64,000 nt of DNA from NCBI RefSeq assembly GCF_900089495.1, contig NZ_LT605203.1, positions 1 through 64,000 on the forward strand. The letters are read 5' to 3'. Below the pieces are notes generated by a model. The model was given only the letters and a program-made list of their open reading frames with translations. It did no database searches and had not been told where the DNA came from. The DNA comes from Thiomonas sp. X19. GTDB taxonomy: Bacteria > Pseudomonadota > Gammaproteobacteria > Burkholderiales > Burkholderiaceae_C. Below, piece by piece: positions 1,183 to 20,784 of the stretch (positions within the stretch are counted from its first letter, which is position 1; the number at the start of each line of letters is the position of its first letter). Made by a program: the position numbers and the translations under genes.

Positions 1183-2213
1183 TCACCCGCGGCCCCGAAC
1201 CCGAAGGTCTGCAATCAAGAACACCACCGAGACCTCCCGGTGCCCGGCGCGATAAGTCGCGACATACCCGCTTGTCTCGCAATCGGGTCCAAGGGATGCG
1301 CAACTGATGTATGTGAGGCCGGACGGAACCTCGTGTTCGAGCATTTTCCTGGCGTTGTCGAGGAGAGGTTCAAGGGCCTTCGCGTAGGAGTAGGTGACGA
1401 GGAAATAGATTTCACAGTGGCCGTACGAGAAAAGCTTGTCGAAATGCGCCTTCGTTTTAGTCCGTTCGAGACCCGAGCAGACAAGCGCCTCGTAGATGCA
1501 TATCTCCTGACCAAAAGCCTCAATGACAGCATCCCGTCTCCCTGGGTTTCCGTTAGAGGTTGCTCCGCCAAGCGATTGGTCAGCCACGTTCCACTTAGCC
1601 ACGGCAAGTGAAGCCCCCAACACTTTTCGCACAGCGGTGTTGAGGTCATCTTCGAACCTCGCCTCATCCTCTGAATTTTTCCTGTCCCGCAACATTGCCG
1701 ACATCTGCTGGAGCGCAGCGACGGCACGCGAGACCTGCCGTACGAGATAGCCTTGTACCCCACGACCGGACGGGCCAAGCACGTCGCCAACTTGGGAAAC
1801 CGGAAGCTCAGCCAACTTCTGCAGTGCAACCCTGATGGACGAAATCTCGTCCACAGCAACCAATGCCGAAGCGACGCTGGACGTCGCGACACCGGCTTGA
1901 AGGTCTTTCTTGACCGCAACCAGTTGGTCGTCAGGGCCGAACTCTGTGATGGCCGCGTCCAGTATCGCCATCGCCTCGCCGCGAGACCCCATTTCCTTCC
2001 TAGCAAGCGCGGCGATGAGTTCCAGGTCCGGGCTTCGCGCTTCATGACGGCGCGCAGCCAGACTCTCCAAGGCTTCAACTGGTCTTTGCAGTGCCAACAA
2101 GAGCAGCGCGCGGTTGGCGAGCAAAGTACTGATGGCTACCTTCTCGTTCGCGCCGACCGCAGCATCAATTTCAGCAAGCAAACCCTCGCCGGTCACCTTG
2201 TCCTCACCGGTTA
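1183..2213 (-). pseudogene. 3' part of large unknown gene split by ISAzo13-type element
   Basis: This is the C-terminal 343 codons or so of a gene whose 5' part lies at 3522-6126. If the element at 2214-3521 is removed together with one copy of the 3-bp TTA duplication, the frame is exactly restored (…HPL-TGEDK-VTGEGLL…), giving a protein of about 1,211 residues. This part begins with helical, TPR-like sequence (ANRALLLLALQRPVEALESL) and ends in a more globular segment. I do not recognise the family. A GTG at 2196 could in principle restart translation, but no promoter is evident, so the gene is most likely inactive. Confidence 0.75.
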
Positions 2214-3521
2214 GGCGTCGTTCAGAAATAACTTGATTGATCTACCCTGAGCGGATGCAGTAGTTCCAATCGCCGTGGAACTTGTTCGGTTCGATGCGAA
2301 TGGTGGCCAAGGCTGCATCGGTGACGACGACACCCTTCGGATACGAGTTGGTGTCCAGTTCGGCATGCACGGTGAGCCCGCTTCTGGTCTTGGTGCCGGC
2401 AATGAGATTGACGATCACTTCGTGGCTGACCAAGGGCTGCGCCCGCCAGTTCATCGTGATGAAGGAGAACATGCGGTGCTCGATCTTGTTCCACTTGCTC
2501 GTGCCAGGCGGGAAGTGGCACACGCGGATGTTCAGCCCAGCCTCTTGGGCGAAGCGGCCCAGTTCGAGTTTCCACAGCCGCACCCGGTGGCCGTTGCTGC
2601 CGCCGCCGTCGGCGGTGATCGTGAGCTCGCGCGCCTTGGGGTAGCGCGGCTTGCCCATCGCGTACCACCAGCGCCGGATAGTTTGCACCGCAAACGTGGC
2701 GGTGTCGTGATCCGTTCCAACGCTCACCCAGCCTTGGTCGGCTCCGATGTCGTAGACCCCGTAGGGGCTGGCTCGGCCGAGTTCCGGGTCCACGAAGTCG
2801 TGCACCTTCACCTGCGCCGGCTCGCCCACGGGGCTCCACTCCTTGCCGCCGTTCCTGAACTGGCCGACCAGTTCCTTCTTCTTGGTGTCCACCGAGATGA
2901 CGGGCTGCCCGCGCGCAAGCGCGGCGCTGACAGTCGCGTTGATGTGCTCGAACTGTGCATTGCGGTCGGGGCTCTGGTTGCCCTCGATCACCTTGGCGTT
3001 GCCCTGCAGGCTGAAGCCCTGGGCCTTCAGCAGTTGGCCCACCACCACATGACTGACAGCGTGACCCTGCTGCTGGAGTTGCTCGGCCAACACGCGAAGG
3101 CTCTTGCAGCTCCAGCGCAATGGCGACTCGGGATCGCCGCGCGTGGTCGGCTCGACAAGTGCGAGCAGGTCCGCCACGAGCGTCGGATCCTTGTGCGTCA
3201 GCGGCTTGCGCCCGCCGCCGGGGCGCCGCGTCGCCGAAGGGGGCGCCAACTGCGCGCCAGCCATGAACTCGTTGTCCGTGCCCTCCAACTCCAGCATGCC
3301 CGCGGCGATCGTGCCGCGAGCCAGGCCGGTGGCCGCCGCAACCTGCGAAGTGCCTCCGCGCCCAATCACCTTGGCTTCGGCGGCGGCCAGCGCCCGGCGC
3401 TGCCGCTCGTCGAGGCGATCTCGCATCAGTGCCCAGCGCTGCCCAATCGGCGAATCGGCTTGCATGGACCGCAAGCCTAACCGACTCGAGGAAACTGAAC
3501 AAGTTATTTCCTAACGACGCC
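2214..3521 (-). mobile_element. ISAzo13-family insertion sequence
   Basis: A 1,308-bp element bounded by 22-bp terminal inverted repeats, 20 of 22 positions matching (2214-2235 and 3500-3521). A 3-bp direct duplication TTA flanks it (2211-2213 and 3522-3524). It contains one transposase gene and interrupts a long minus-strand gene. The ends are intact and the transposase is complete, so the insertion looks recent and possibly still mobile. Confidence 0.9.
2242..3474 (-). CDS. ISAzo13-family transposase
   Basis: A 410-residue transposase filling the element at 2214-3521. Typical family segments are present: an N-terminal helix-turn-helix region, VDTKKKELVG in the middle, TADGGGSNG and the C-terminal PPGTSKWNKIEHRMFSF, which carry the acidic catalytic residues of the DDE-type core. 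The ATG at 3474 lies just inside the right terminal repeat. Long overlapping frames in the same region are shadows. Family assignment rests on recognised motifs and not on a search. Confidence 0.88.
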   Translation of the reverse strand: MRSMQADSPIGQRWALMRDRLDERQRRALAAAEAKVIGRGGTSQVAAATGLARGTIAAGMLELEGTDNEFMAGAQLAPPSATRRPGGGRKPLTHKDPTLVADLLALVEPTTRGDPESPLRWSCKSLRVLAEQLQQQGHAVSHVVVGQLLKAQGFSLQGNAKVIEGNQSPDRNAQFEHINATVSAALARGQPVISVDTKKKELVGQFRNGGKEWSPVGEPAQVKVHDFVDPELGRASPYGVYDIGADQGWVSVGTDHDTATFAVQTIRRWWYAMGKPRYPKARELTITADGGGSNGHRVRLWKLELGRFAQEAGLNIRVCHFPPGTSKWNKIEHRMFSFITMNWRAQPLVSHEVIVNLIAGTKTRSGLTVHAELDTNSYPKGVVVTDAALATIRIEPNKFHGDWNYCIRSG

Positions 3522-6126
3522 TTAGCGGATGCAGGGTGGGGCCTAGAAGCTGTTGGATGGCAGTCGCAAAGAGGTTCTCCTTGTACGCAGAAGCCGCGCC
3601 GGGACGCGCTGCAAGCCTTTGGAGCACGACCCGGGCCCCTGCCAAATCGCCGTCCGGCCGTAACAGTTGGGAGGTGGCCTTGTAGAAGTCCAGTTGGTCC
3701 TGCGCTTGTCCCGTTGTAGACACATCCAGGGCCGCTGGGACGTTCGCGCCATCGACCGCAGTCCAGTTCTTCTCCTTCAGAAACAGCCGTAGCCCGAGGC
3801 TAAAAAGGCCAAGTCGGAACTGCGACGGCGCGCGCCCCAAGTCCTGCGCAGTTTCATCCAAATGCTCGCGGGCAAGCCCGTATTCGCCGGCGGCCAACAA
3901 GCACTCGATGCGGTGCTGCAGCTCGGGCCAGGTCCAAAGCGTTGAAGCCTCTCCTGGCTTCAGCTGCCACAACCTCGCTTGGATGCCAGTCTTCGCCGCA
4001 GCAGGCAAGTGCTGGCAAAGCTCGGCAAGTAGCACCGGGTCATCGGACTGGGCAACCGCCTGCAACATCGCTTCCTGGTGAGTGCCATCTAGCCTGCGCC
4101 ATGCGGCCGCTAGGTCTTGTGCCGGCGAGCCCTCCTCACGTGCAAGAAAGAGGCTTGGGCTGTACCTGTCTGTGAGAGCGCCGATGCGCCCCTTCTCAGC
4201 GTGCTCAATAGCGCTGCGCGAAACGAGCGCTTGCAATGCGTCGGCGAGTTCCGCAGGCACGGCCCCGTTGGGCCAACCGGCCATGGCGCGTGCGAGCAAC
4301 CGCACGTGCTCTCTCAGAGTGCGGGCAATGGTAGAGCGCTGAGACAGCTTGTCTTCGTCCGGCACTTCTCTCAGCAGCCTTGCGCTATCAAATGGGACTA
4401 GCAGCGCGTCTCGCTCGGGCGCGGCTTGCGCGAATGCCGTTGCGACAAGTCGTGCAGCCAGTTCTGGGGACAAACTGCCTGCATCAGTCCAGTCCAAGTT
4501 CAGGTCGCGCGCAAACTTGGTATATAGAGCGACGATAGCGGAAGCGTCGGCAGCCCGCGCGTTCGGAAGGCATCCCAGTCCGTCGAGCACTCCTGCAAAG
4601 TGCGCGCGGGGCACGTTGTTCTCATAGGCCGCCTGCTCAACGAGGTGCTGCAGAACCACAGACTGAACTTCTTCCTTTTCCCTTGCGACCAGCCCGAGAA
4701 GCTGACGGCCGATGGGCCTCCTGGCATCGGCGACCGCCCTCCCGCGACCAGAGCCATCGGCGTAGCACCAAGTCACCAGCGACGCGCACTCATCGAGGTC
4801 AAGCGTGCGCCCGACCAGGTGGTATGCCAGAAGCGATAGCGCGTCTTGGACTGCGAACGTCTTGGTCTGAGCTTCACGGGCCAAATTGCGGTCACTATCT
4901 GGCCCACCTCCCTGGCGCCACTCAATGACCAACCTAGCGGCCAGGCAGGCGACGAGCGGGTGCAGCAGCATGTCGACCAAAAGAGATGGCACGGCTTTGA
5001 CCCGGAACAGAAGCTGCTGCAATGCCATCGGATGACCGGCTGCAAACGAGAGAACCGTCCCTGCCTTGGCCGAGATACCGAGACCAATACCCGTCGTATC
5101 GAGCTCAGCACAAAGCAGACTCAATGCAAAGCTCACGGTGCTCGGGCTAATGAGCCGTTCCATCATGAGGTGCTCGACCTCAAGGCTTGCCAGCCAGTCC
5201 ACCCGAGAAACCAGTGTCCGTGGTGGCGCCGTCCTTGGAGTCCTGGCAAACCGCAGTCGGTCCAGCGGAATTGCGAATGTCTTTTCGAGCACGTCCGCGT
5301 AGCTCGCGGCATCGTTGTCCCAGTTACCACACAATGCCTGGCGTTTCAAGACTCGATGGGCGGCCTCACGGCAGTACTGCATTTGAGTGGGGCCCCAGCC
5401 GATGTCCCACCTGCCAGCGCAGCCGAGGGCGTTACACCACGCAGACCATTCGAGAAAGGCTCTGTCGACCTCTCGCTCATGAGCCTCAAATGCCTGCGGC
5501 AGGACCTCGGCACCACCCTTTGCTGCTGCTACCTCGGTCCTGTTGCTGCCGTCGTCGTCGGCTCCTACCAGAGGTTGGGGGCACAACCGCTCCCATAGTC
5601 GGCCCGCAACATACCCGGGGTTCCGGGTGGGAATGTGCTCGTTGAGCCACTCTTCAGGCGCAATCCTGGCTGCAAGCGCCCGGGTACTGGTGGGTGGCGG
5701 TGTTTCCTCTTTCGTCACGAGACGTACCTTGCTGAGCCCGTCCAGAAACGTCTTCGTGCTCGGGCTTGGAAAGGTGATGTGCGCGGAGGTGCCTAGAGGC
5801 GCACTCTGCATAATCCAGCGGCCGCCGTCGAAAAACACCCATCCCATGCGGACGAGGTCGTTGAACGTCGGACCGCCTTCTGCAATGCGTTGCTCCGACT
5901 CGTCCCAGGTCTTGGCAACGTCCTCAGCGCCACCCGGATACTCTAATCGGTAGTGTTTGCACAGGTCGAGGAGACTCAGCTCGTCGACCATGCCATCCGA
6001 ACCCACGATGAGCCGTGGATGACGCGACCGCGACAACCAGCGCTCGAATAGTTGCCTCAGTTCGTGACGCACTTTCAGCGGCGCCCCCATACCTTCGAGC
6101 GGCCACACCTGCTCGTATCCCGACAC
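3522..6126 (-). pseudogene. 5' part of large unknown gene split by ISAzo13-type element
   Basis: About 868 codons of the interrupted gene, from a GTG start at 6126 preceded by GGGGA. Translation would run four codons into the insertion sequence and stop at 3511. The sequence is soluble, mostly alpha-helical and repeat-like, without transmembrane segments, Walker motifs or recognisable catalytic signatures. Upstream lies only a 258-bp gap before the structured repeat at 6385. The setting, between an ImmA peptidase and a STAND NTPase, is compatible with a defence or stress function, but nothing in the protein shows it. A truncated product may still be made. Confidence 0.75.
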
Positions 6127-6808: not shown

Positions 6809-7042
6809 TTAACCGTGGCCAAGAAGACGTAAGACCAGTCCGACGGCATGGCCAGTCGGGGTGTGCAAAGCGACGATGACGATAGCGATGGCCGTCAGCA
6901 GACGGCAACCAAAAATGCGGATATCACGCGAAATCAGAGCGTTGCGGAGTTCCCGGTCGCTCTTGAATCCGCCGTAGGCATCGTCGGGGCCTGCGCGGTT
7001 GGGCGCTGCCCTTGGCCGGTGCGAGATTTGCTTTTGCCTCAT
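6809..7042 (-). CDS. Small membrane protein, divergent from the STAND gene
   Basis: A 77-residue frame with a strong ribosome site (GGAGG, four bases before the ATG at 7042). The C-terminal half contains one probable membrane segment (LLTAIAIVIVALHT), preceded by a charged soluble stretch. It is divergent from the gene at 7111, with only 68 bp between starts, and shares the region that holds the inverted repeat at 7074-7097. No family is recognised. A small membrane partner of a STAND system would be attractive but is speculation; the frame could also be spurious. Confidence 0.45.
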   Translation of the reverse strand: MRQKQISHRPRAAPNRAGPDDAYGGFKSDRELRNALISRDIRIFGCRLLTAIAIVIVALHTPTGHAVGLVLRLLGHG

Positions 7043-7073: not shown

Positions 7074-7097
7074 TGGAACACTTTTTTATGTGTGCCA
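7074..7097. promoter_or_regulatory. Candidate operator between divergent genes
   Basis: Inverted repeat TGGAACAC - 8 bp T-rich spacer - GTGTGCCA, with 7 of 8 arm positions complementary. It lies 13 bp before the ATG at 7111 and 31 bp before the divergent start at 7042. The downstream product carries an XRE-type helix-turn-helix, so autoregulation at this site is a reasonable inference. Confidence 0.5.
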
Positions 7098-7110: not shown

Positions 7111-10100
7111 ATGAAAAAAGCTATGTCGCCCGCGCCGTACGCAGCATTCGGGGAACTCCTTGCCCAACGCCGGGTTGAAGCTGGCTTTGCGAAGCAGCAG
7201 GAGCTCGCAGTCGCCCTGGACATACGGCAGCAGTCCGTCAGCCGATGGGAAAAGGGTTTGGGCCGACCTCGCGCGACCGAGATTCCCGCGCTCGAGAAGT
7301 TGGTCAAGGCGCAACCGAACGAACTGCTAGCCGCAGCAGGGTTCGCACAGCTACCGACCATCAAGCCGACAGGGCCGGAAGCCGCGACTTCGTTCGACCG
7401 AGCCCTTCCCCTGTCAGCGCTCTCGCCTGAAACGTTCGAGAGCTTCTGCACTGCACTGCTCAGCCGTCTGTATCGGGTCCAACACGGCGACGTGCATCGC
7501 TACGGCGGAGCGGGCAGCAAGCAACACGGTATCGACATCACTGCGCGGGGCCCATTCGGAGTTCATTCGTTCCAATGCAAACGCGTTAACGAGTTCGGGG
7601 CCCAGAAAGTGCATAAAGCGGTTGGCGAGCAGACCTACGAGGCGAACCTCAAGGTACTGCTGCTGTCCTGCGTGGCCAGCCCCAAGGCACGTGATGCAAT
7701 CGTCGCCCACAAAGACTGGCAGTTGTGGGACCGGGAGGACATCACTCGCAAGCTCCATGAGCTACCTCTTGCCGACCGCCTAGACTTGGTTGATAGGTAC
7801 TTCAGTGGCCAACGATTTGACCTGCTGGGCATAGCTAAGGCCGGCCCCTTCCAAAGCATCGAAGAGTACTTCAAGCCATTTCTAGTCGAGGGTCGATTTT
7901 TCAATCACTCCTGGGCGCTCGTCGGACGCCGTAAGGAGCTTGACGCGCTGACTACGTGCGTGAAGAACGAATCAGCGCGCATCACTTGCCTCCTGGGCGC
8001 TGCCGGCTCAGGCAAGAGCCGCCTGCTACTGGAAGTAGTCAACCACTTGGTGCGCGCCGACAAGAGCCTCAGTATCCGATTCGTCTCATCCACCGAAGAA
8101 GTAAAAGCACACCACCTTGATGCCCTCCGTAGCTCGAGGGGTGACAAAACTCTCTTGGTCGTCGATGACGCCCATGAGCGCGATGATTTGGGCATCCTCT
8201 TGAGGTACGCAGCCGACCCTGACCACAACACACGTTTGCTCTTGTCCCTTCGCCCCTACGGCCAGGAGTCGCTTCGACACCAAGCTGCGAACGTGTCGCT
8301 ACTTCCTCCCGCGGTGCAATTCGTCGCCCTAGCTCCGCCAACTGTCGAGTCAGCGGTAGACCTTGCCTCGTCGGTTCTTCTGCAATGCCACGCATCCGTC
8401 GAGGCGGCGGCTGGAATTGCAAGCGCTACCTACCCAACGCCGCTAGTGACCGTCCTCGCGGCTCAGCTTGTCGCACGGGACGAGATTCCAGTTGCACTTC
8501 TGAGCAACGCCGATGACCTTTGCGCCTACGTCTTGCCGCGCCTCCAAGACGTCATCACGGGAAGCCTCGTCACCGGCCAAGACGCTGAAAAGCTGCGGGC
8601 AGTCTTGCGGGTTGTCGCACTTGTACAACCCTTCTTCCCGGACGACCCTGCCCTGTTAGCTGCGCTGAGCATCCTCGAGGGTATCGACAAAGTCGACGCA
8701 ACCAAGCTGTTACGACTGCTCAATGACGCAGGCGTGCTGTTCAAGCGAGGCCTGCGTTGGCGACTCGCGCCAGACCTTCTCGCGGACGACATCCTCAAGT
8801 CCAACTACATCAGCCCCGAGGGTTCTATCAACGAGCGGGCAGTCCAGTTCTTTGAACAAGCGACTGTCGCTCAACTGAAGAACATGTTCGTCAACCTCGG
8901 GCGCCTTGACTGGCGACGCAGGGATGGAAAGACTGATGAGAGCAAGCTCCTTGACAGCCTCCAGCCTCTCCTGAAATGGGGTGACAAGTACGACAACCCA
9001 CACGTCGAAGCGGTAGAGGCAGTCGCCTACTACCAGCCACGCTTCGCGCTTGCGTTCGCTACGAAGCTCATCAAAGAAGGCCATGGGGACTGCGACAAGG
9101 TTTGCTACATCGCGCGCAACGCCGCATTCACTTACGACCATCTCGAAGAGGCATGCCTCCTCCTGTGGCGCGCCGGACGCAACGACCAGCGCCCGCTAAA
9201 TCAGAACCCAGGGCATGGCATCCGTCTCCTGACGGAACTGGCCGAGTTTGGCGTGAACAAACCCATCGCGTACGTTGAAGGTGTCGTCAACTTCGCACTC
9301 GGACTACTTGAGCGACCCGCCTCGCTCTCAGGGACCTATTCGCCCTTCTCTATCCTCGAGGGGGCTCTCGCAACAGAAATGCAGTCAACGAGCTACTCAC
9401 ACAACGCGTACACCATCACGCGCTACCGGCTTCCGCTGCAACAGGCGAAGGAGGTCCGGCAGCAAATTGCCAGCGCGCTTCTACGCTTTATCACGGCGGA
9501 GCCGCATAAGAGAGCGCTCCTCGCGGCGCGGACGCTATCGCATGCACTGCGCTCGCCGATGCACGGCGATGAATCGGATGGCGCCTGGAGCGATGAGCAC
9601 CTTCACCTGCTGAGCAAAGTGAGGACACTACTGAAAGGGGTGACGGTACACCCCGTTGTCTTGGTCGAACTTGCCAAATCTGTCTCCTGGCATGCGTTCT
9701 TCTCGAGTTCGGAAACGCGCAACGAAGCTCGCGCAATTCTGTGGCACCTCGAGCGTGACCTCAGAACCAGGACAATCCGTGTCCTCATCGATGGCTGGGG
9801 CAGCGAAACGTGGGAATTCAATGCGTCACACGAGCGAGAGGGCGTCGAAGAGTACCGAGAGCAAGTGACCTCTGACCTGCTCTCCGCGTTCCTGGAACCG
9901 GCCGCATTGCTGGACGAGTTGGGCTCATGTTTGGAGGACATCGGCACCATCGCGGGGGACGGCTATGGCTCACCCTTCATGTTCATGAACCACCTGCTTG
10001 CAGCAGCCCCCGGTCTGGCACGGGAACTCGTGATGCAAGACATTGAGAAACGTCTCAACGAGCGCCTGCGTCCACACGTTGGACAAGCCCTCAGCATCGT

Positions 10101-11172
10101 CATTGCCTCGAACGAAGTAGGTCTGCTTCAAAGATTCTTGGCGGGCTCACACGGCTCTGACCCAGCACTTGCGCGAGTTGCAGAGGCGTACGTCCGCTTT
10201 ACGCCTTCTCGACCATACAACGCGGACGAGGTAGCACTCTTCCGCCGCATTTGCAAATCCGACGTCCCAGACCTGCTTGTTATGGGGGCGCGTCTTGTGC
10301 GGCAGGTCTCTCATCAGAACGCGGGGTTAGCGCTTGAGCTCGCGTGCTCCATGCAGTTTGACGTCTGCGCGCCTGCGACACATGAGGTCCTCATGTGGCT
10401 CGCGTCCACCAAGGACCTTTCCCCGTCAGATGTCGACACTAGGCGCCGGGACCTACTCCGCAATCTTGAACGCCTGGAACGCATCGACGATTACTGGGTT
10501 GTGGAGTTTCTGAAGAAATCCACCGAACGCGACCCCGTTGCAGTGGTGGAACTCATGAAGGCTCGCCTAGGAACGAGCGGCAAAGGCAGGCGCTGGAATC
10601 ATATTTTCTTCACCGGCGGGCATCAGAGTACAGGGCTCGGGCTGCAAATCACGTCGCTTGGGACACGCCTTCTGAAGGACCTGCTCGACTGGGCGCTTGT
10701 TGAGTGCACCGAGCCGTCGGCCACCTGGTCATTCGGCAACACAGTGTCGACCCTCTGGGGCTCGTATGACCAGTCGCTCCTCAACGAACTGCTCAACTGG
10801 ATGTCCGGTGGCACGGAGGAGCACGCACGCTTGGTTGCAGCGGTTTTGGAAAATGCCCAACAAACCATCATCTATGAGAGCCCGGGCTTTGTCGACGATA
10901 TCCTTGAAATGGCGGACCTCATTGGAGATAAGGCTCTTGCTTCGATTCGATATTCACTTGCATCTGCAACGCAATCCGGTGTCCGAAGTGGCATTCCCGG
11001 AGAGCCGTTTGCCGAGGACGTCCGACTTGAAGAACACTGCAAAGCCAGGCTCGATACGCTGGGCCGCACCGCGCCGGCATATGAGCTTTACGATGAATTG
11101 CTAAAGAGGGCACGCGACAGCATTGCCCAACAGCGCCACATGAAGGAAGCGATGGGCGACGAGGATGAGTAG
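7111..11172 (+). CDS. XRE-HTH / Mrr-like nuclease / STAND NTPase fusion, candidate defence protein
   Basis: A 1,353-residue protein. Residues about 12-62 form an XRE-type helix-turn-helix (QQELAVALDIRQQSVSRWEK). Residues about 105-215 resemble a Mrr-like restriction-endonuclease fold, with F-E at 109-110, G-I-D at 140-142 and the Q-x-K pair at 155-157 (FQCKR). Residues about 268-460 form a P-loop NTPase with Walker A GAAGSGKS (296-303) and Walker B LLVVDDAH (348-355), as in STAND/AAA proteins. The remaining 850 or so residues are helical and solenoid-like, where STAND proteins sense their trigger. The ATG at 7111 is chosen because AGGGG lies just upstream; an upstream in-frame extension to 7012 has no ribosome site. 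Avs-type antiviral STANDs combine nuclease, STAND and sensor in this order, but an N-terminal XRE domain is unusual. The function is inferred from architecture only. Confidence 0.85.
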   Translation: MKKAMSPAPYAAFGELLAQRRVEAGFAKQQELAVALDIRQQSVSRWEKGLGRPRATEIPALEKLVKAQPNELLAAAGFAQLPTIKPTGPEAATSFDRALPLSALSPETFESFCTALLSRLYRVQHGDVHRYGGAGSKQHGIDITARGPFGVHSFQCKRVNEFGAQKVHKAVGEQTYEANLKVLLLSCVASPKARDAIVAHKDWQLWDREDITRKLHELPLADRLDLVDRYFSGQRFDLLGIAKAGPFQSIEEYFKPFLVEGRFFNHSWALVGRRKELDALTTCVKNESARITCLLGAAGSGKSRLLLEVVNHLVRADKSLSIRFVSSTEEVKAHHLDALRSSRGDKTLLVVDDAHERDDLGILLRYAADPDHNTRLLLSLRPYGQESLRHQAANVSLLPPAVQFVALAPPTVESAVDLASSVLLQCHASVEAAAGIASATYPTPLVTVLAAQLVARDEIPVALLSNADDLCAYVLPRLQDVITGSLVTGQDAEKLRAVLRVVALVQPFFPDDPALLAALSILEGIDKVDATKLLRLLNDAGVLFKRGLRWRLAPDLLADDILKSNYISPEGSINERAVQFFEQATVAQLKNMFVNLGRLDWRRRDGKTDESKLLDSLQPLLKWGDKYDNPHVEAVEAVAYYQPRFALAFATKLIKEGHGDCDKVCYIARNAAFTYDHLEEACLLLWRAGRNDQRPLNQNPGHGIRLLTELAEFGVNKPIAYVEGVVNFALGLLERPASLSGTYSPFSILEGALATEMQSTSYSHNAYTITRYRLPLQQAKEVRQQIASALLRFITAEPHKRALLAARTLSHALRSPMHGDESDGAWSDEHLHLLSKVRTLLKGVTVHPVVLVELAKSVSWHAFFSSSETRNEARAILWHLERDLRTRTIRVLIDGWGSETWEFNASHEREGVEEYREQVTSDLLSAFLEPAALLDELGSCLEDIGTIAGDGYGSPFMFMNHLLAAAPGLARELVMQDIEKRLNERLRPHVGQALSIVIASNEVGLLQRFLAGSHGSDPALARVAEAYVRFTPSRPYNADEVALFRRICKSDVPDLLVMGARLVRQVSHQNAGLALELACSMQFDVCAPATHEVLMWLASTKDLSPSDVDTRRRDLLRNLERLERIDDYWVVEFLKKSTERDPVAVVELMKARLGTSGKGRRWNHIFFTGGHQSTGLGLQITSLGTRLLKDLLDWALVECTEPSATWSFGNTVSTLWGSYDQSLLNELLNWMSGGTEEHARLVAAVLENAQQTIIYESPGFVDDILEMADLIGDKALASIRYSLASATQSGVRSGIPGEPFAEDVRLEEHCKARLDTLGRTAPAYELYDELLKRARDSIAQQRHMKEAMGDEDE

Positions 11173-13679: not shown

Positions 13680-16600
13680 CTAGAAACTATCTTCGGACCG
13701 TTGCGTTACTGCCGGACTGTTAAGCAAGGCCTCGATTGCCTCGGGCTTGTGGAGAAGGAATCCTTGGCCATAGTCGACGCCGATTTCCTTCATCCGCGCC
13801 AATACACCTGCCTTGTCGATGAACTCTGCCACGGTCTTGACACCAACCACCCGTGCTACTTCGACGAAGCAGCGCACGGCGGCATCGTCGAGAGGGTCTT
13901 CGATGACATCGCGGACGAACTGCCCGTCAATTTTCAACAGGTCAACGGCGAGAGACTTCAGATATCCGAATGACGAAGCGCCTGCGCCAAAGTCGTCAAG
14001 GGCAACGCGGACACCGAGTGTTCGCACCTCTTCGACGAACAGCGCCGCGTCCGCCATGTTTGTGACGGCAGCGGTCTCCGTTATCTCAAAACAGAGCCGT
14101 GCGCAAACATCGGAACCGGCGGCGGACAGGATTTCCACTGTGTTGCGATGAAACGCGCGGTCCCCGATGGATTGCCCCGACAGGTTGACGCACAGCACGT
14201 CAATGGTCGACAAATCCTGGATGGCCGCGAGCATGCCAACAACGCGATGTAGAACCCATCGGTCGATTCGAGAGGTGAGATGGAAGAGCTCTGCGGCCGG
14301 CAGAAATGTGCCGGGCGCAATCAAGCTGCCGTCGTCATCGACCATTCTCAGGAGAACCTCCGCATGTAATCCTCCCCCCTCCGAGCCCAAAGGGATAATC
14401 CGTTGCGCATGCAGTACGAACCTGTCCTCGTCGATGGCGTGTTCCAGGCGCGACGCCCATTGGGTTTCTCCATTACGGGCGTGCATTGATGCATCTGCAT
14501 CAAACCAGGTGTGCACGCGATTACGGCCCGCCTCTTTCGCCGCGTAGCACGACGTATCGGCTGCCTGCAGAACTGCCTCCGGAGTCGACCAGCGATTGTC
14601 GAGCGGAACGAGGCCGATGCTTGTGCCAATCCTGAACCGGCGCTCATCATGAAAAAACCTGAATTCGTCCATGCGGTCGCAAATTTGCTGGGCGACTCGC
14701 TGCGCCTGTTCGCCCGTGCAGTGCTCAAGAATGACAGCGAACTCATCCCCCCGAGCCTTGCGAGCGTGTCTCTTGCGCGTACTGTATCCCGCAGTAACTT
14801 GGCCACATGTTGCAAAAGCTGGTCGCCGGCGGAGTGTCCACACGCGTCATTGACCAACTTGAACTGGTCTAGGTCGATGAACATGAGCGCATGTTCACTC
14901 TTCTCTTCATGCGCCTTGTTCAAGGTCCGTGCAAGTCTCGACTCGAACTCGGCCCGATTGGTCAAACCCGTGAGTGCGTCGTGCGTTGCGCGATAGCTCA
15001 TCTCACCGCTCAAGCGGCGCTGTTCGGTGACATCGTGAAAGACCAAGACGACCCCGAGAAGCTCGCCACGTTCGTTCCGGATGGGAGCAGCTGAGTCTTC
15101 GACGCCGAACTCTGAGCCAGTTCGCGAAATGAGGACCGTGCGGTCGGCTAGACCCGCCATCACACCTTCGCTGATACAAGCGTCAACAGGGCTGGGACTG
15201 ATTTTGCGAGTCGTTTCGTGAACGATGTGGAAGACCTGCGAGATGGGCCGTCCACGCGCCTCGTCGTTGAGCCAACCTGTCATCCGTTCGGCGGCCGGAT
15301 TCAGCCATGTCACGTTTGCGGACTCGTTCGTCGTGATGACAGCGTCGCCGATGGACTGAAGGGTGACCCGAAGGAGTTCGTGCTGTTTCGCCAGTTCATC
15401 GCTCAACGCACGGCGTTCGGTGATGTCCTGAACCGTGCCACGCAGGCCGACGACCGCACCGGCTGCGTCTCGCTCGGCCTCGCCACGCATCTCAAGCCAG
15501 CCCGTAGAGCCGTCTGCCCTAACGCATTCCAACTCCAGCGCGTACGGTTGCCCCGAGCTCAGAGCGGCTTCTACGGAAGCTTGTAGGCGCGAGAAACTCT
15601 CGGCACCGTATATCCGCGCGTGTTCGGCCCCGCTTGGTGCCGAAGAGCCGGGCTCCAGCCGAAAGATGCGATACAGTTCGTCGGACCATGTCGTTACGTC
15701 CTCCGCGACGCTCCAGGACCAATTGCCAATACGTCCCAGGCGTTGAGCTTCGCTCAATGAGGCGGTGCGGAGACGCAAGAGCTCATGCGCTCGCTCGCGC
15801 TGGACAATTTCGTTGCGAAGCGCTTTCTCCGCCGTCTTCAGCGGCGAGACATCGCTCACGTGGACCAGAATTCCAAGCACTTTGCCGTTCACAATGTGCG
15901 GCGTGTAGTTGGTGAGGCTGTGGCGTTTGACTCCCCCCGGTCCGGGCACGACTCGTTCGAATGTTTGCGCATCCCCGTTCAGCGCCGCGTCCAAATACGG
16001 CTTGTTCAACGCGAACAGCTCCGGTCCGAGCAAGTCCTGAATATGCTGTCCGACGAGGGCATCGGGGTGCACACCGAACCAGAGTTCGTAGGCGCGATTC
16101 GCGAACCGGCAGCGCAAGTCACGATTCCAGTAAGCAAGCATGGCTGGCACAGCGTCAACGATGATGCGCATGTCATATTCGCGCTCCATCCTCAGCAGCG
16201 TCGCTTGTTCAAACTTGCGCAGCGCCGCGCGCGTCTCGAGGGCCCGAGCCGCTGCCACAGACAGGTGCAGCAGGATTTCTCGCTGGGCGTGGGTTAAGAC
16301 ACGTGGCTGGCGGTCGATGACGCAGAGCGTCCCCACACGCATCCCGTCGCTGAGCCGAATGGGGGCGCCAGCGTAGAAGCGAATATCGGGCTGTCCTGTG
16401 ACCAGCGGGTTATCGGCAAACCGCTCGTCCGCGGCGGCATCGGGAACCTCGAATAGGTCGTCCGCGTGAATGGCATGGGCGCAGAAGGCTACGTCACGTG
16501 GCGTCTCGGTCACTCCCGGCAGTCCGATGTTGGCTTTGAACCACTGCCGATTCTCGTCTACCAGGCTCACCAGCGATATGGGAACACCGCAGACAAGGGC

Positions 16601-19078: not shown

Positions 19079-19459
19079 ATGACCGATAAAATGAAAACGG
19101 CGGCGACACCCACGATTTCCGGCCGCATCCCCGAAAGTCCGATGCCCTTGCCGGTCGAGCGTGCGCTGGTTGCTGCCGGAGAGGACCTTGCGCTGGCCCG
19201 CCGACGCCGAGGGCTTTCTACGTCGTCCATGGCGGAGCGGGCGGGCATCTCAAAAAAGACTCTCTACCGGCTGGAAAAGGGCGACCCCGGGGTGTCGTGG
19301 GGCGCTGTGGTTCGGGTCCTGAACATCCTGAACCTTCTACCCGAACTCAACAAGGCCCTGAACACCACCAATGATGCGCTCGGCCTAGCGCTCATGAACA
19401 AGGCGGTAGCCAAACGCATCCGGGTACGCAAAACCAACCCGGACAGTGGAGCCCTGTAA
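19079..19459 (+). CDS. hipB: HipB-like XRE antitoxin / repressor
   Basis: A 126-residue protein with an XRE helix-turn-helix at about residues 38-95 (ALARRRRGLSTSSMAERAGISKKTLYRLEKG). The C-terminus is basic. Its stop overlaps the start of the next gene by one base (TAATG), the usual translational coupling of hipB and hipA. In known pairs HipB binds DNA and neutralises the HipA kinase while repressing the operon. It is longer than E. coli HipB because of an N-terminal extension of about 35 residues. Confidence 0.85.
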   Translation: MTDKMKTAATPTISGRIPESPMPLPVERALVAAGEDLALARRRRGLSTSSMAERAGISKKTLYRLEKGDPGVSWGAVVRVLNILNLLPELNKALNTTNDALGLALMNKAVAKRIRVRKTNPDSGAL

Positions 19460-20784
19460 TGGCAACGACAAAAAAAGCAAAAACCAGCACAACGCGGACG
19501 CTGCTCGTCTATCTGGGCGACACGGGACTGGAAGTGGGCGAACTGCAATTTTCCAGACAGGGGCAAAAGGAGGTCTCGGCATTCCGGTACTCCCCTGCTT
19601 GGCTCAGTAATCCAGATTGCTTCGCACTGTCTCCGGACCTTCCCCTGAGCGCCGACTTTCAATACCGTACGGGAAGCAAGGAGACTTCTACCTTTGCAGG
19701 TGCCATTGCCGATACTGAGCCGGATGGCTGGGGACGGCGTGTTATCAACCGCGCCCACGCCAAACGGCGCAAGGCTGAAAAAGACGCCGGTCGAGACGCT
19801 GGTTCTGCACAGCTGTCAGACCTGGACTATTTGCTGGGGGTGCTGGATTCCAGCCGCATTGGCGCACTGCGCTTCAGGGACAATGCCAACAGCCCCTTCC
19901 TCGATGTGCCGCATGACGACAACTTGCCTGAAGGAACTCACGAGGTCCCGCTGCAGACCTTGATTCAGGCGTCGAAAGCGGTCGAATCCGGCAAGGAAAC
20001 GGCGACGGACCTCGCGTATCTGAAAGGGCGCGGCACCTCGCTCGGCGGCATGCGACCCAAAGCAACGGTCCTGAAGCCCGACGGCACCCTAGCCATCGCC
20101 AAGTTTCCGAGCGTGAACGATACGCGTGACATGGCGCGCGGTGAGGTGCTGGCTCTGTTGCTCGCGAAAGAGGCGGGCCTGAATGCGTCCGAGGCCGAAG
20201 TCGTCATGGCTGGCACCCAGGCTGTCGCGCTTATCGTGCGGTTTGACCGACCTCGGGCTGGTGGCCGCATCCCTTACCTATCTGCGGCCTCGCTGCTGCA
20301 GCTGGATTCCAGGGAAGATGGCGCATACACGCAAATTGCGGAGGCCATTGACCGGTTCTCCCCGAGACCCCTCGAAGACAAGCAGGAGCTTTGGGCGCGC
20401 ATCTGCTTCAACATGCTCATCACCAACGTGGATGACCACATGCACAACCACGGCTTCCTGCACAGCGGCGGGGGGCAGTGGCGGCTCGCCCCGCTGTTTG
20501 ACGTGAACCCGTTTCCCGACAAGGAACCCATCCTGAAAACCGCCGTGACCGAAGCGTCCGGTGAAACCGGAGATATTCAGGAGGCGCTGGAGGCAGCGGC
20601 ATACTTTGGCGTGTCCGATGACGACGCCCATGCAATACTGACCCGGATGGCGGCTGCCCTGACCGACTGGAAACGAATCGCCCGGTCCCCGGCCGTGGGG
20701 ATGAGTGACGATGAAATCGAAAAGGTCACGCCTGCTTTTGAGAACGACAACTGGGATACGGTGGCAACCTTTCTGGAACAATAA
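19459..20784 (+). CDS. hipA: HipA-like serine/threonine kinase toxin
   Basis: A 441-residue HipA-family kinase. The glycine-rich stretch GTSLGGMRPKA, the catalytic loop NVDDHMHNHGFL and the metal-binding LAPLFDVNP are all present, so the enzyme looks intact. Family toxins phosphorylate glutamyl-tRNA synthetase or similar targets and induce dormancy. The N-terminal region (LLVYLGDTGLEVGELQFSR to FSADFQYRTG) matches the usual couple_hipA part, so this is a full-length HipA and not the split HipS-HipT type. It is co-transcribed with hipB. Confidence 0.9.
   Translation: MATTKKAKTSTTRTLLVYLGDTGLEVGELQFSRQGQKEVSAFRYSPAWLSNPDCFALSPDLPLSADFQYRTGSKETSTFAGAIADTEPDGWGRRVINRAHAKRRKAEKDAGRDAGSAQLSDLDYLLGVLDSSRIGALRFRDNANSPFLDVPHDDNLPEGTHEVPLQTLIQASKAVESGKETATDLAYLKGRGTSLGGMRPKATVLKPDGTLAIAKFPSVNDTRDMARGEVLALLLAKEAGLNASEAEVVMAGTQAVALIVRFDRPRAGGRIPYLSAASLLQLDSREDGAYTQIAEAIDRFSPRPLEDKQELWARICFNMLITNVDDHMHNHGFLHSGGGQWRLAPLFDVNPFPDKEPILKTAVTEASGETGDIQEALEAAAYFGVSDDDAHAILTRMAAALTDWKRIARSPAVGMSDDEIEKVTPAFENDNWDTVATFLEQ

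Follow-up and report, generated by a model that had tools for sequence, protein, structure and literature searches.

The window analysed here, 64,000 nucleotides of Thiomonas sp. X19, is the start of a contig of 4,639,458 bases (C3). At 7111..11172 on its forward strand lies a gene for a protein of 1,353 residues, in which an XRE domain, an Mrr nuclease, an nSTAND5 NTPase and a solenoid follow one another, as assigned by the ORF call, Pfam and homologue search. This reading frame is the only match at E ≤ 0.001 in the 4,674,432-base genome. Its neighbours are a small divergent gene, an ImmA/CapP-like gene and a large unknown gene, the last of which appears to be interrupted by an insertion sequence. 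Translation might begin instead at an in-frame TTG at 7012, adding 33 residues at the N-terminus; the ATG at 7111 is the likelier start, because the extension would cross the operator region described below.

The N-terminal domain is a helix-turn-helix of the XRE/434 type (residues 10-75; 7138..7335, forward strand, as are the other domains), recognized by Pfam HTH_31, by profile matches and by the helices modelled at residues 11-75; two glutamines occupy positions 40-41 of its recognition helix. It is followed by the Mrr_cat nuclease domain (residues 102-213; 7414..7749), by the core of the STAND NTPase (about residues 244-452; 7840..8466), with Walker A at 296-303 and Walker B at 348-355, and by a C-terminal helical solenoid, HEAT/ARM-like and probably the sensor (residues 560-1353; 8788..11169). 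Outside the helix-turn-helix, nuclease and NTPase, the residues are mainly helical in the predicted models. A domain-by-domain profile search, proposed in an earlier note made from the DNA letters, found HTH_31 at residues 12-72 (E = 5e-7), Mrr_cat at 102-213 (1e-5) and nSTAND_NTPase5 at 279-381 (1.9e-10), each above its own Pfam gathering score and the last as the sole NTPase family to exceed it. The three domains that the note had placed in one chain are thus present.

E110, D142, Q155, K157, G296, G301, K302, D352, D353 and H355 are invariant in all 35 aligned sequences, and the catalytic and Walker residues picked out in the earlier note (D142, Q155, K157, 296-303, 348-355) were correct. 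The alignment holds the window protein and 34 relatives, that is 41 loci without three near-copies, the incomplete L017 and L022, and L041, which lacks the helix-turn-helix and has QFR where other family members have QCK. The D...QxK core and the Mrr_cat profile are those of an Mrr-type PD-(D/E)xK nuclease; the P-loop, the DD Walker B and the STAND fold are those of an NLR-like STAND NTPase. The predicted nuclease fold at residues 102-213 rests on Pfam and the conserved residues.

The dyad in the gene's own promoter

The promoter region of the large gene carries an operator-like dyad, ACACTTTTTTATGTGT (7078..7093), which was first noticed by reading promoters side by side and then counted. The general form, ACNC-N7/8-GNGT, is present in 26 of 32 dereplicated loci, compared with 91/4,730 random flanking windows (109/4,739 in another draw) and 11/389 upstream regions of other ORFs of at least 250 residues. 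A binomial tail calculated for the general form takes no account of kinship between the loci and is not to be read as a probability. The strict form, ACAC-N7/8-GTGT between -70 and +10 of the start, occurs in 14 of the 32 loci and in one of 4,739 random flanking windows. With ACAC-N3..10-GTGT at -90 to +20 the counts are 14/32 against 10/1,890, or 25/32 against 168/1,881 if one mismatch is allowed; with AC[AG]C-N7/8-G[CT]GT they are 21/32 against 35/3,131 and, at one mismatch, 30/32 against 686/3,129. The 32 loci are the window and 40 others less nine dropped before counting, of which L005, L010, L015, L021, L026 and L032 are near-copies and L017, L022 and L041 are truncated or lack the helix-turn-helix; L067, a near-copy of L018, was likewise left out of the motif counts.

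Beyond this set, the general form is found in three of five loci (L044, L068 and L097, not L070 or L099); it was settled after L044, L068, L070 and L097 were known, so that the counts are no blind test, and none of these four has the strict form. L099 was the one new locus among 684 genomes drawn around the genome G858 (in two draws, which may overlap). It belongs to the genus of L070, was the sole locus examined after the pattern had been fixed and lacks the general form in its promoter; its coding frame is broken, and by eye its promoter has wider-spaced arms, TACTCA...TGAGTA.

Several branches have two sites 27-31 bp apart (for example L018, L025, L029, L035 and L040), the second reaching over or adjoining the start codon; the spacing is 28 bp in L044 and 37 bp in L068. 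The site of the actinobacterial loci L033, L034, L036 and L038 is ACGC-N7-GCGT. The window site is unique in its genome within two mismatches, and at three mismatches there are three other matches, compared with ten for a reversed control pattern. A promoter consensus scan found nothing. The site appears to be weakly correlated with the two recognition-helix glutamines: L016 (AR, both lost) and L037 (RQ) are without it and L011 (EQ) has it, the Fisher test (p 0.03) having placed L011 in the QQ group.

Two features of an XRE autorepressor, the 434-type helix-turn-helix and a dyad operator-like site upstream of the gene that encodes it, were found. The best reading of a dyad so placed in most loci examined is that the fused XRE domain represses its own promoter through this predicted operator, and the self-repression suggested in the earlier note probably occurs in this way.

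Family, distribution and neighbours

A search with the window protein returned 271 proteins at E ≤ 1e-3, its own entry included. The best 120 of them have 44-78% identity (own entry aside) at a query coverage of 65-100%, and a simple motif test finds the helix-turn-helix in 115 of these; P0019 and P0059 were added by eye. A second profile, built from actinobacterial and alphaproteobacterial members and one Thermoanaerobaculia member, found 325 proteins, which may overlap with the 271; in a reading of its best 120, a helix-turn-helix family is present in 116 and Mrr_cat in 99. As the architecture recurs across several hundred homologues, in Proteobacteria and Actinomycetota, the fusion is not due to chance. 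The XRE domain, which the earlier note had taken for an unusual addition, is in fact the rule across the family and not particular to the window genome; some relatives without it retain the remaining architecture. The named loci are from Beta-, Gamma-, Alpha- and Deltaproteobacteria, Magnetococcales, Actinomycetota and one Thermoanaerobaculia bin.

Few genomes have the gene, and its occurrence is patchy. Within the order, 16/399 genomes have some match at E ≤ 1e-10 and only 2/399 a full-length one; the class has 2/369 and the phylum 3/398, one of the three partial (84-1124), in overlapping draws that include the window's genome. The genus has the large gene in 2/28 genomes, and the relatives in all in 2/60. 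Around G858, itself counted, the figures are 1/337 for the class and 2/347 for the order; L070 reads through 1,372 codons without a stop, though the G858 entry records one TAG. Horizontal spread is likely, because in the FastTree tree the Pseudomonas copies are nested among Burkholderiales and the two copies of Pseudoduganella namucuonensis come from different subclades. Phage records searched with the window protein gave no match. Three plasmid records match, one of them covering at least 80% of the query, and the IMG/VR matches are one contig recurring as L042, L095 and L096, together with L097 and the helix-turn-helix-only L098.

The 108 nearest ORFs matched 106 PADLOC models at E ≤ 1e-10. 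Among the best 25 are CBASS SAVED-HNH effectors (two members), a cyclase, ThsB (two), SduA (two), PD-Lambda-4, AbiE and a type II methyltransferase. As many control ORFs matched 28 models, and 18 of the best 25 were E1-E2 models. This comparison is supportive only, in that the control ORFs, taken from 18 of 20 stretches, all come from one bacterial order, the neighbours span several phyla and the model counts are redundant. The neighbour ORFs had been reduced from 123 proposed by a script, mainly by dropping short ones by hand, with the third-nearest inserted in places, before any matches were known. Pfam finds four phage-type integrases among the neighbours and otherwise mostly single ordinary genes. 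By eye, L044 adjoins AbiE-like genes; the R. etli plasmid copy adjoins HNH, AAA ATPase, helicase and HEPN-associated genes.

When four window neighbours were compared by tblastn with 51 loci, the window's own included, neither the ImmA/CapP-like gene nor the unknown large one had a match in the other 50 (flanks of at most 10 kb, often shorter). The earlier note had judged that these neighbours fit a defence locus; conservation supports a partnership for the small divergent protein, within part of one clade, and not for the other two. Beside the gene itself, the 40 largest neighbour clusters contain, on a reading of the list, a small ORF that five alphaproteobacterial loci have downstream, the small ORF on the divergent side and a few more; the window locus entered this clustering at base 5611, so that its ImmA gene was out of reach.

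Relation to known systems

In structure comparison the model resembles Apaf-1 and EfAvs5 and, more loosely, Avs4. The top rows, Apaf-1, EfAvs5 and NLRC4, cover up to 327 residues, and the rows listed span mainly residues 244-632. The gene most likely encodes an immune protein related in design to the NLR sensors of animals and plants. The window protein, searched as a single sequence, has no match in the PDB at E ≤ 1; the profile, unlike the single sequence, reaches it, the helix-turn-helix matching 434 and P22 C2 repressor chains.

Nuclease, STAND NTPase and repeat solenoid in one chain are the design of Avs (AVAST types 1-4), and the Avs-type architecture proposed in the earlier note, with a structural comparison as its check, is borne out to this extent. 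Yet the protein lies outside the Avs family HMMs: among the ten PADLOC families matched by the window protein at E ≤ 1 none is Avs, nor is there an Avs among the best 25 of 35 families matched by 25 family members. Avs proteins are activated by a phage terminase or portal protein and have a C-terminal sensor of the TPR type; the solenoid modelled here appears HEAT/ARM-like. Compared with Avs4 (AVAST type 4; PDB 8dgf), the family has an additional N-terminal XRE domain, the dyad in its promoters and clade-specific small membrane partners, and it is not assigned to Avs by PADLOC.

Phage 434/P22 C2-type repressors and HipB-type antitoxins are autoregulatory. They share with the window protein the helix-turn-helix profile and a short inverted-repeat site in their own promoter, and the recognition-helix glutamines of a 434-derived chain align with those described above; here, however, the domain is fused to a nuclease-STAND receptor. 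In the Mrr-NACHT proteins L046-L048 the Mrr region matches (about profile positions 80-235); L046 is by eye without the N-terminal XRE domain, and the frames are larger, about 1,645 codons. EfAvs5 and PaAvs5 are SIR2-STAND proteins with a Sir2 NADase effector (PMC12931631); the window protein has a nuclease in its place. LypABC offers a precedent in trans, a CARD-NLR operon repressed by the XRE-family protein CdxB (PMC13236601). The two cases are alike in that an NLR-like immune system is restrained by an XRE-family repressor; CdxB is a separate protein of 132 residues, whereas here the repressor would be part of the receptor-nuclease chain. No account of this architecture or operator was found among the open-licence PMC papers listed by the searches, and passages of PMC7159879, PMC13092281 and PMC9519451 describe neither.

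The Mrr_cat domain, a helix-turn-helix in the same chain that could target DNA, the AAA+ motors RuvB and ClpB among the structural matches, and the defence genes close by would also suit a type IV (Mrr-like) restriction enzyme, in which the helix-turn-helix recognizes incoming DNA and the NTPase and solenoid translocate or regulate, with no sensing of phage proteins. This is unlikely in view of the NTPase family, nSTAND_NTPase5, and the leading structural matches, Apaf-1, EfAvs5 and NLRC4, of the conserved site that most of the loci examined have at the promoter of this very gene, and of the relatives that retain the remaining domains without a helix-turn-helix. MalT/SWACOS STAND regulators, which have no nuclease effector, offer another model: the STAND module and solenoid would sense a metabolite or protein, the helix-turn-helix would control genes and the Mrr domain would be a DNA-binding relic. 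A relic would hardly have kept its nuclease residues in 35 of 35 sequences, and the full window site is found within two mismatches only at the gene's own promoter; with the nearby defence genes and the patchy distribution, this makes such a regulator decidedly improbable. An Avs-like nuclease remains the preferred reading.

Small membrane partners and a proposed mechanism

The small divergent gene (6809..7042, reverse strand) encodes 77 residues with one predicted membrane helix. It is clear in five of 39 loci (the window, L002, L006, L008 and L011) and diverged in a sixth, L003; tblastn confirms it in L002, L006, L008, L011 and a same-genus copy (G1138), not in L003. Its pN/pS is 0.21-0.84, and it occurs together with the large gene in exactly the same two of 28 same-genus genomes. 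Among its 85 database relatives, one of which (P0168) carries PF27176, 18, the window's own included, share their longest-contig size with some of the 120 listed large proteins, compared with none for the best 120 of the distant profile. Pfam (E ≤ 10; window, L006 and L003 copies) and NCBIfam (E ≤ 1; window copy) gave no match. Six alphaproteobacterial loci, one well-supported clade in the FastTree tree, have a small membrane ORF immediately downstream of the large gene instead; those of L027, L029, L030, L032 and L040 are alike, and that of L028 differs (51 residues). No such ORF was seen in the plasmid locus L068. The linkage, constraint and shared contig sizes (18/120 large-protein clusters; 0/120 for the distant set) would fit a toxin-antitoxin-like module in which the small protein is the main regulatory partner, the helix-turn-helix and motif are real and defence is a side effect, a very remote prospect given that the small gene is missing from most loci and that the alphaproteobacterial loci carry different small membrane ORFs.

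The protein is probably an Avs-like anti-phage nuclease, NLR-like and made of a single polypeptide, that doubles as its own transcriptional repressor. In Avs1-Avs4 the sensor binds a phage protein, the STAND module oligomerises and the nuclease cleaves DNA (PMC12931631). For the window protein, DNA binding, repression, phage sensing and DNA cleavage are inferred, the sensing by analogy with Avs. In the uninfected cell the XRE domain would bind the dyad over its own promoter, so that the toxic nuclease stays scarce. On infection the C-terminal solenoid would bind a conserved phage protein and the STAND NTPase would oligomerise; the Mrr nuclease heads would then meet and DNA would be degraded. 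Oligomerisation may also free the promoter. Some members of one proteobacterial clade have the divergent one-helix membrane protein, which shares the operator region and is a linked accessory, possibly an anchor, an inhibitor or a second effector.

What is new here is the operator-like dyad in the promoter of an XRE-Mrr-STAND gene. The family is one to which the 2023 PADLOC models give no Avs name, and two kinds of small membrane partner have come to light with it. Because it joins sensor, nuclease and putative repressor in a single chain and has a predicted operator, the family bears on how bacteria hold lethal NLR-like nucleases silent but ready, and it makes the coupling between receptor state and transcription directly testable. 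Tentatively, the family might be a self-wired immune switch, in which one NLR-like receptor is at once sensor, nuclease and promoter repressor and its conformational state governs both killing and the dosage of its gene. The resting form would sit on the operators until phage-induced oligomerisation took it off them, raised expression and armed the nuclease; small membrane proteins that differ between lineages would act as partners.

Relatives with altered domains and decayed copies

The XRE helix-turn-helix domain is missing from the relatives encoded at L041 and L017/L071 and from the database proteins P0064, P0067 and P0068. At L041, besides this loss, the QCK of the Mrr nuclease core (Q155-K157 in the numbering of the window protein) is replaced by QFR. 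L045 (G253:C1:774856-775221) is a decayed copy consisting of only the final ~120 residues, with a stop, and L099/L100 (G1733:C21) is another, in which the frame is broken. The loci L046-L048 contain large open frames of ~1,645 codons, which have the Mrr region in common with the window protein family. As judged by eye, the Mrr region of L046 is followed by a NACHT-like NTPase and no XRE domain is present.

Promoter of L031 and small membrane ORFs

By eye, the L031 promoter has no exact form of the standard site, the operator-like dyad of the large gene's own promoter; a longer palindrome of different topology is seen upstream of the start, just 5' of position 9989. The small membrane ORFs directly 3' of the alphaproteobacterial copies (~13999-14451; L027, L028, L029, L030, L032 and L040) differ from the betaproteobacterial divergent small ORF. 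In the Roseateles locus L014, the latter (~9684-9913) appears by eye to be frame-broken.

Other genes on the contig of the window

The gene at 21-845 of the window, located at the very start of the chromosome-sized contig, encodes an ImmA/IrrE-type peptidase that strongly matches PADLOC capP (4.3e-57). A BrnT/BrnA-like toxin-antitoxin pair, recognized by eye at 14760-15354 of L062, lies at the far end of the same contig and would be near the window, provided that the contig is circular. A HipB/HipA-like pair was identified by eye at 19079-20784 of the window.

An ISAzo13-type transposase (2242-3474, minus strand) lies between a 337-aa ORF (1183-2196) and an 871-aa ORF (3511-6126), both also on the minus strand. 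Each piece was searched, and neither had a match in Pfam, PADLOC or NCBIfam (E<=1). The two ORFs (1183-6126) look like a single gene split by the ISAzo13-type insertion.
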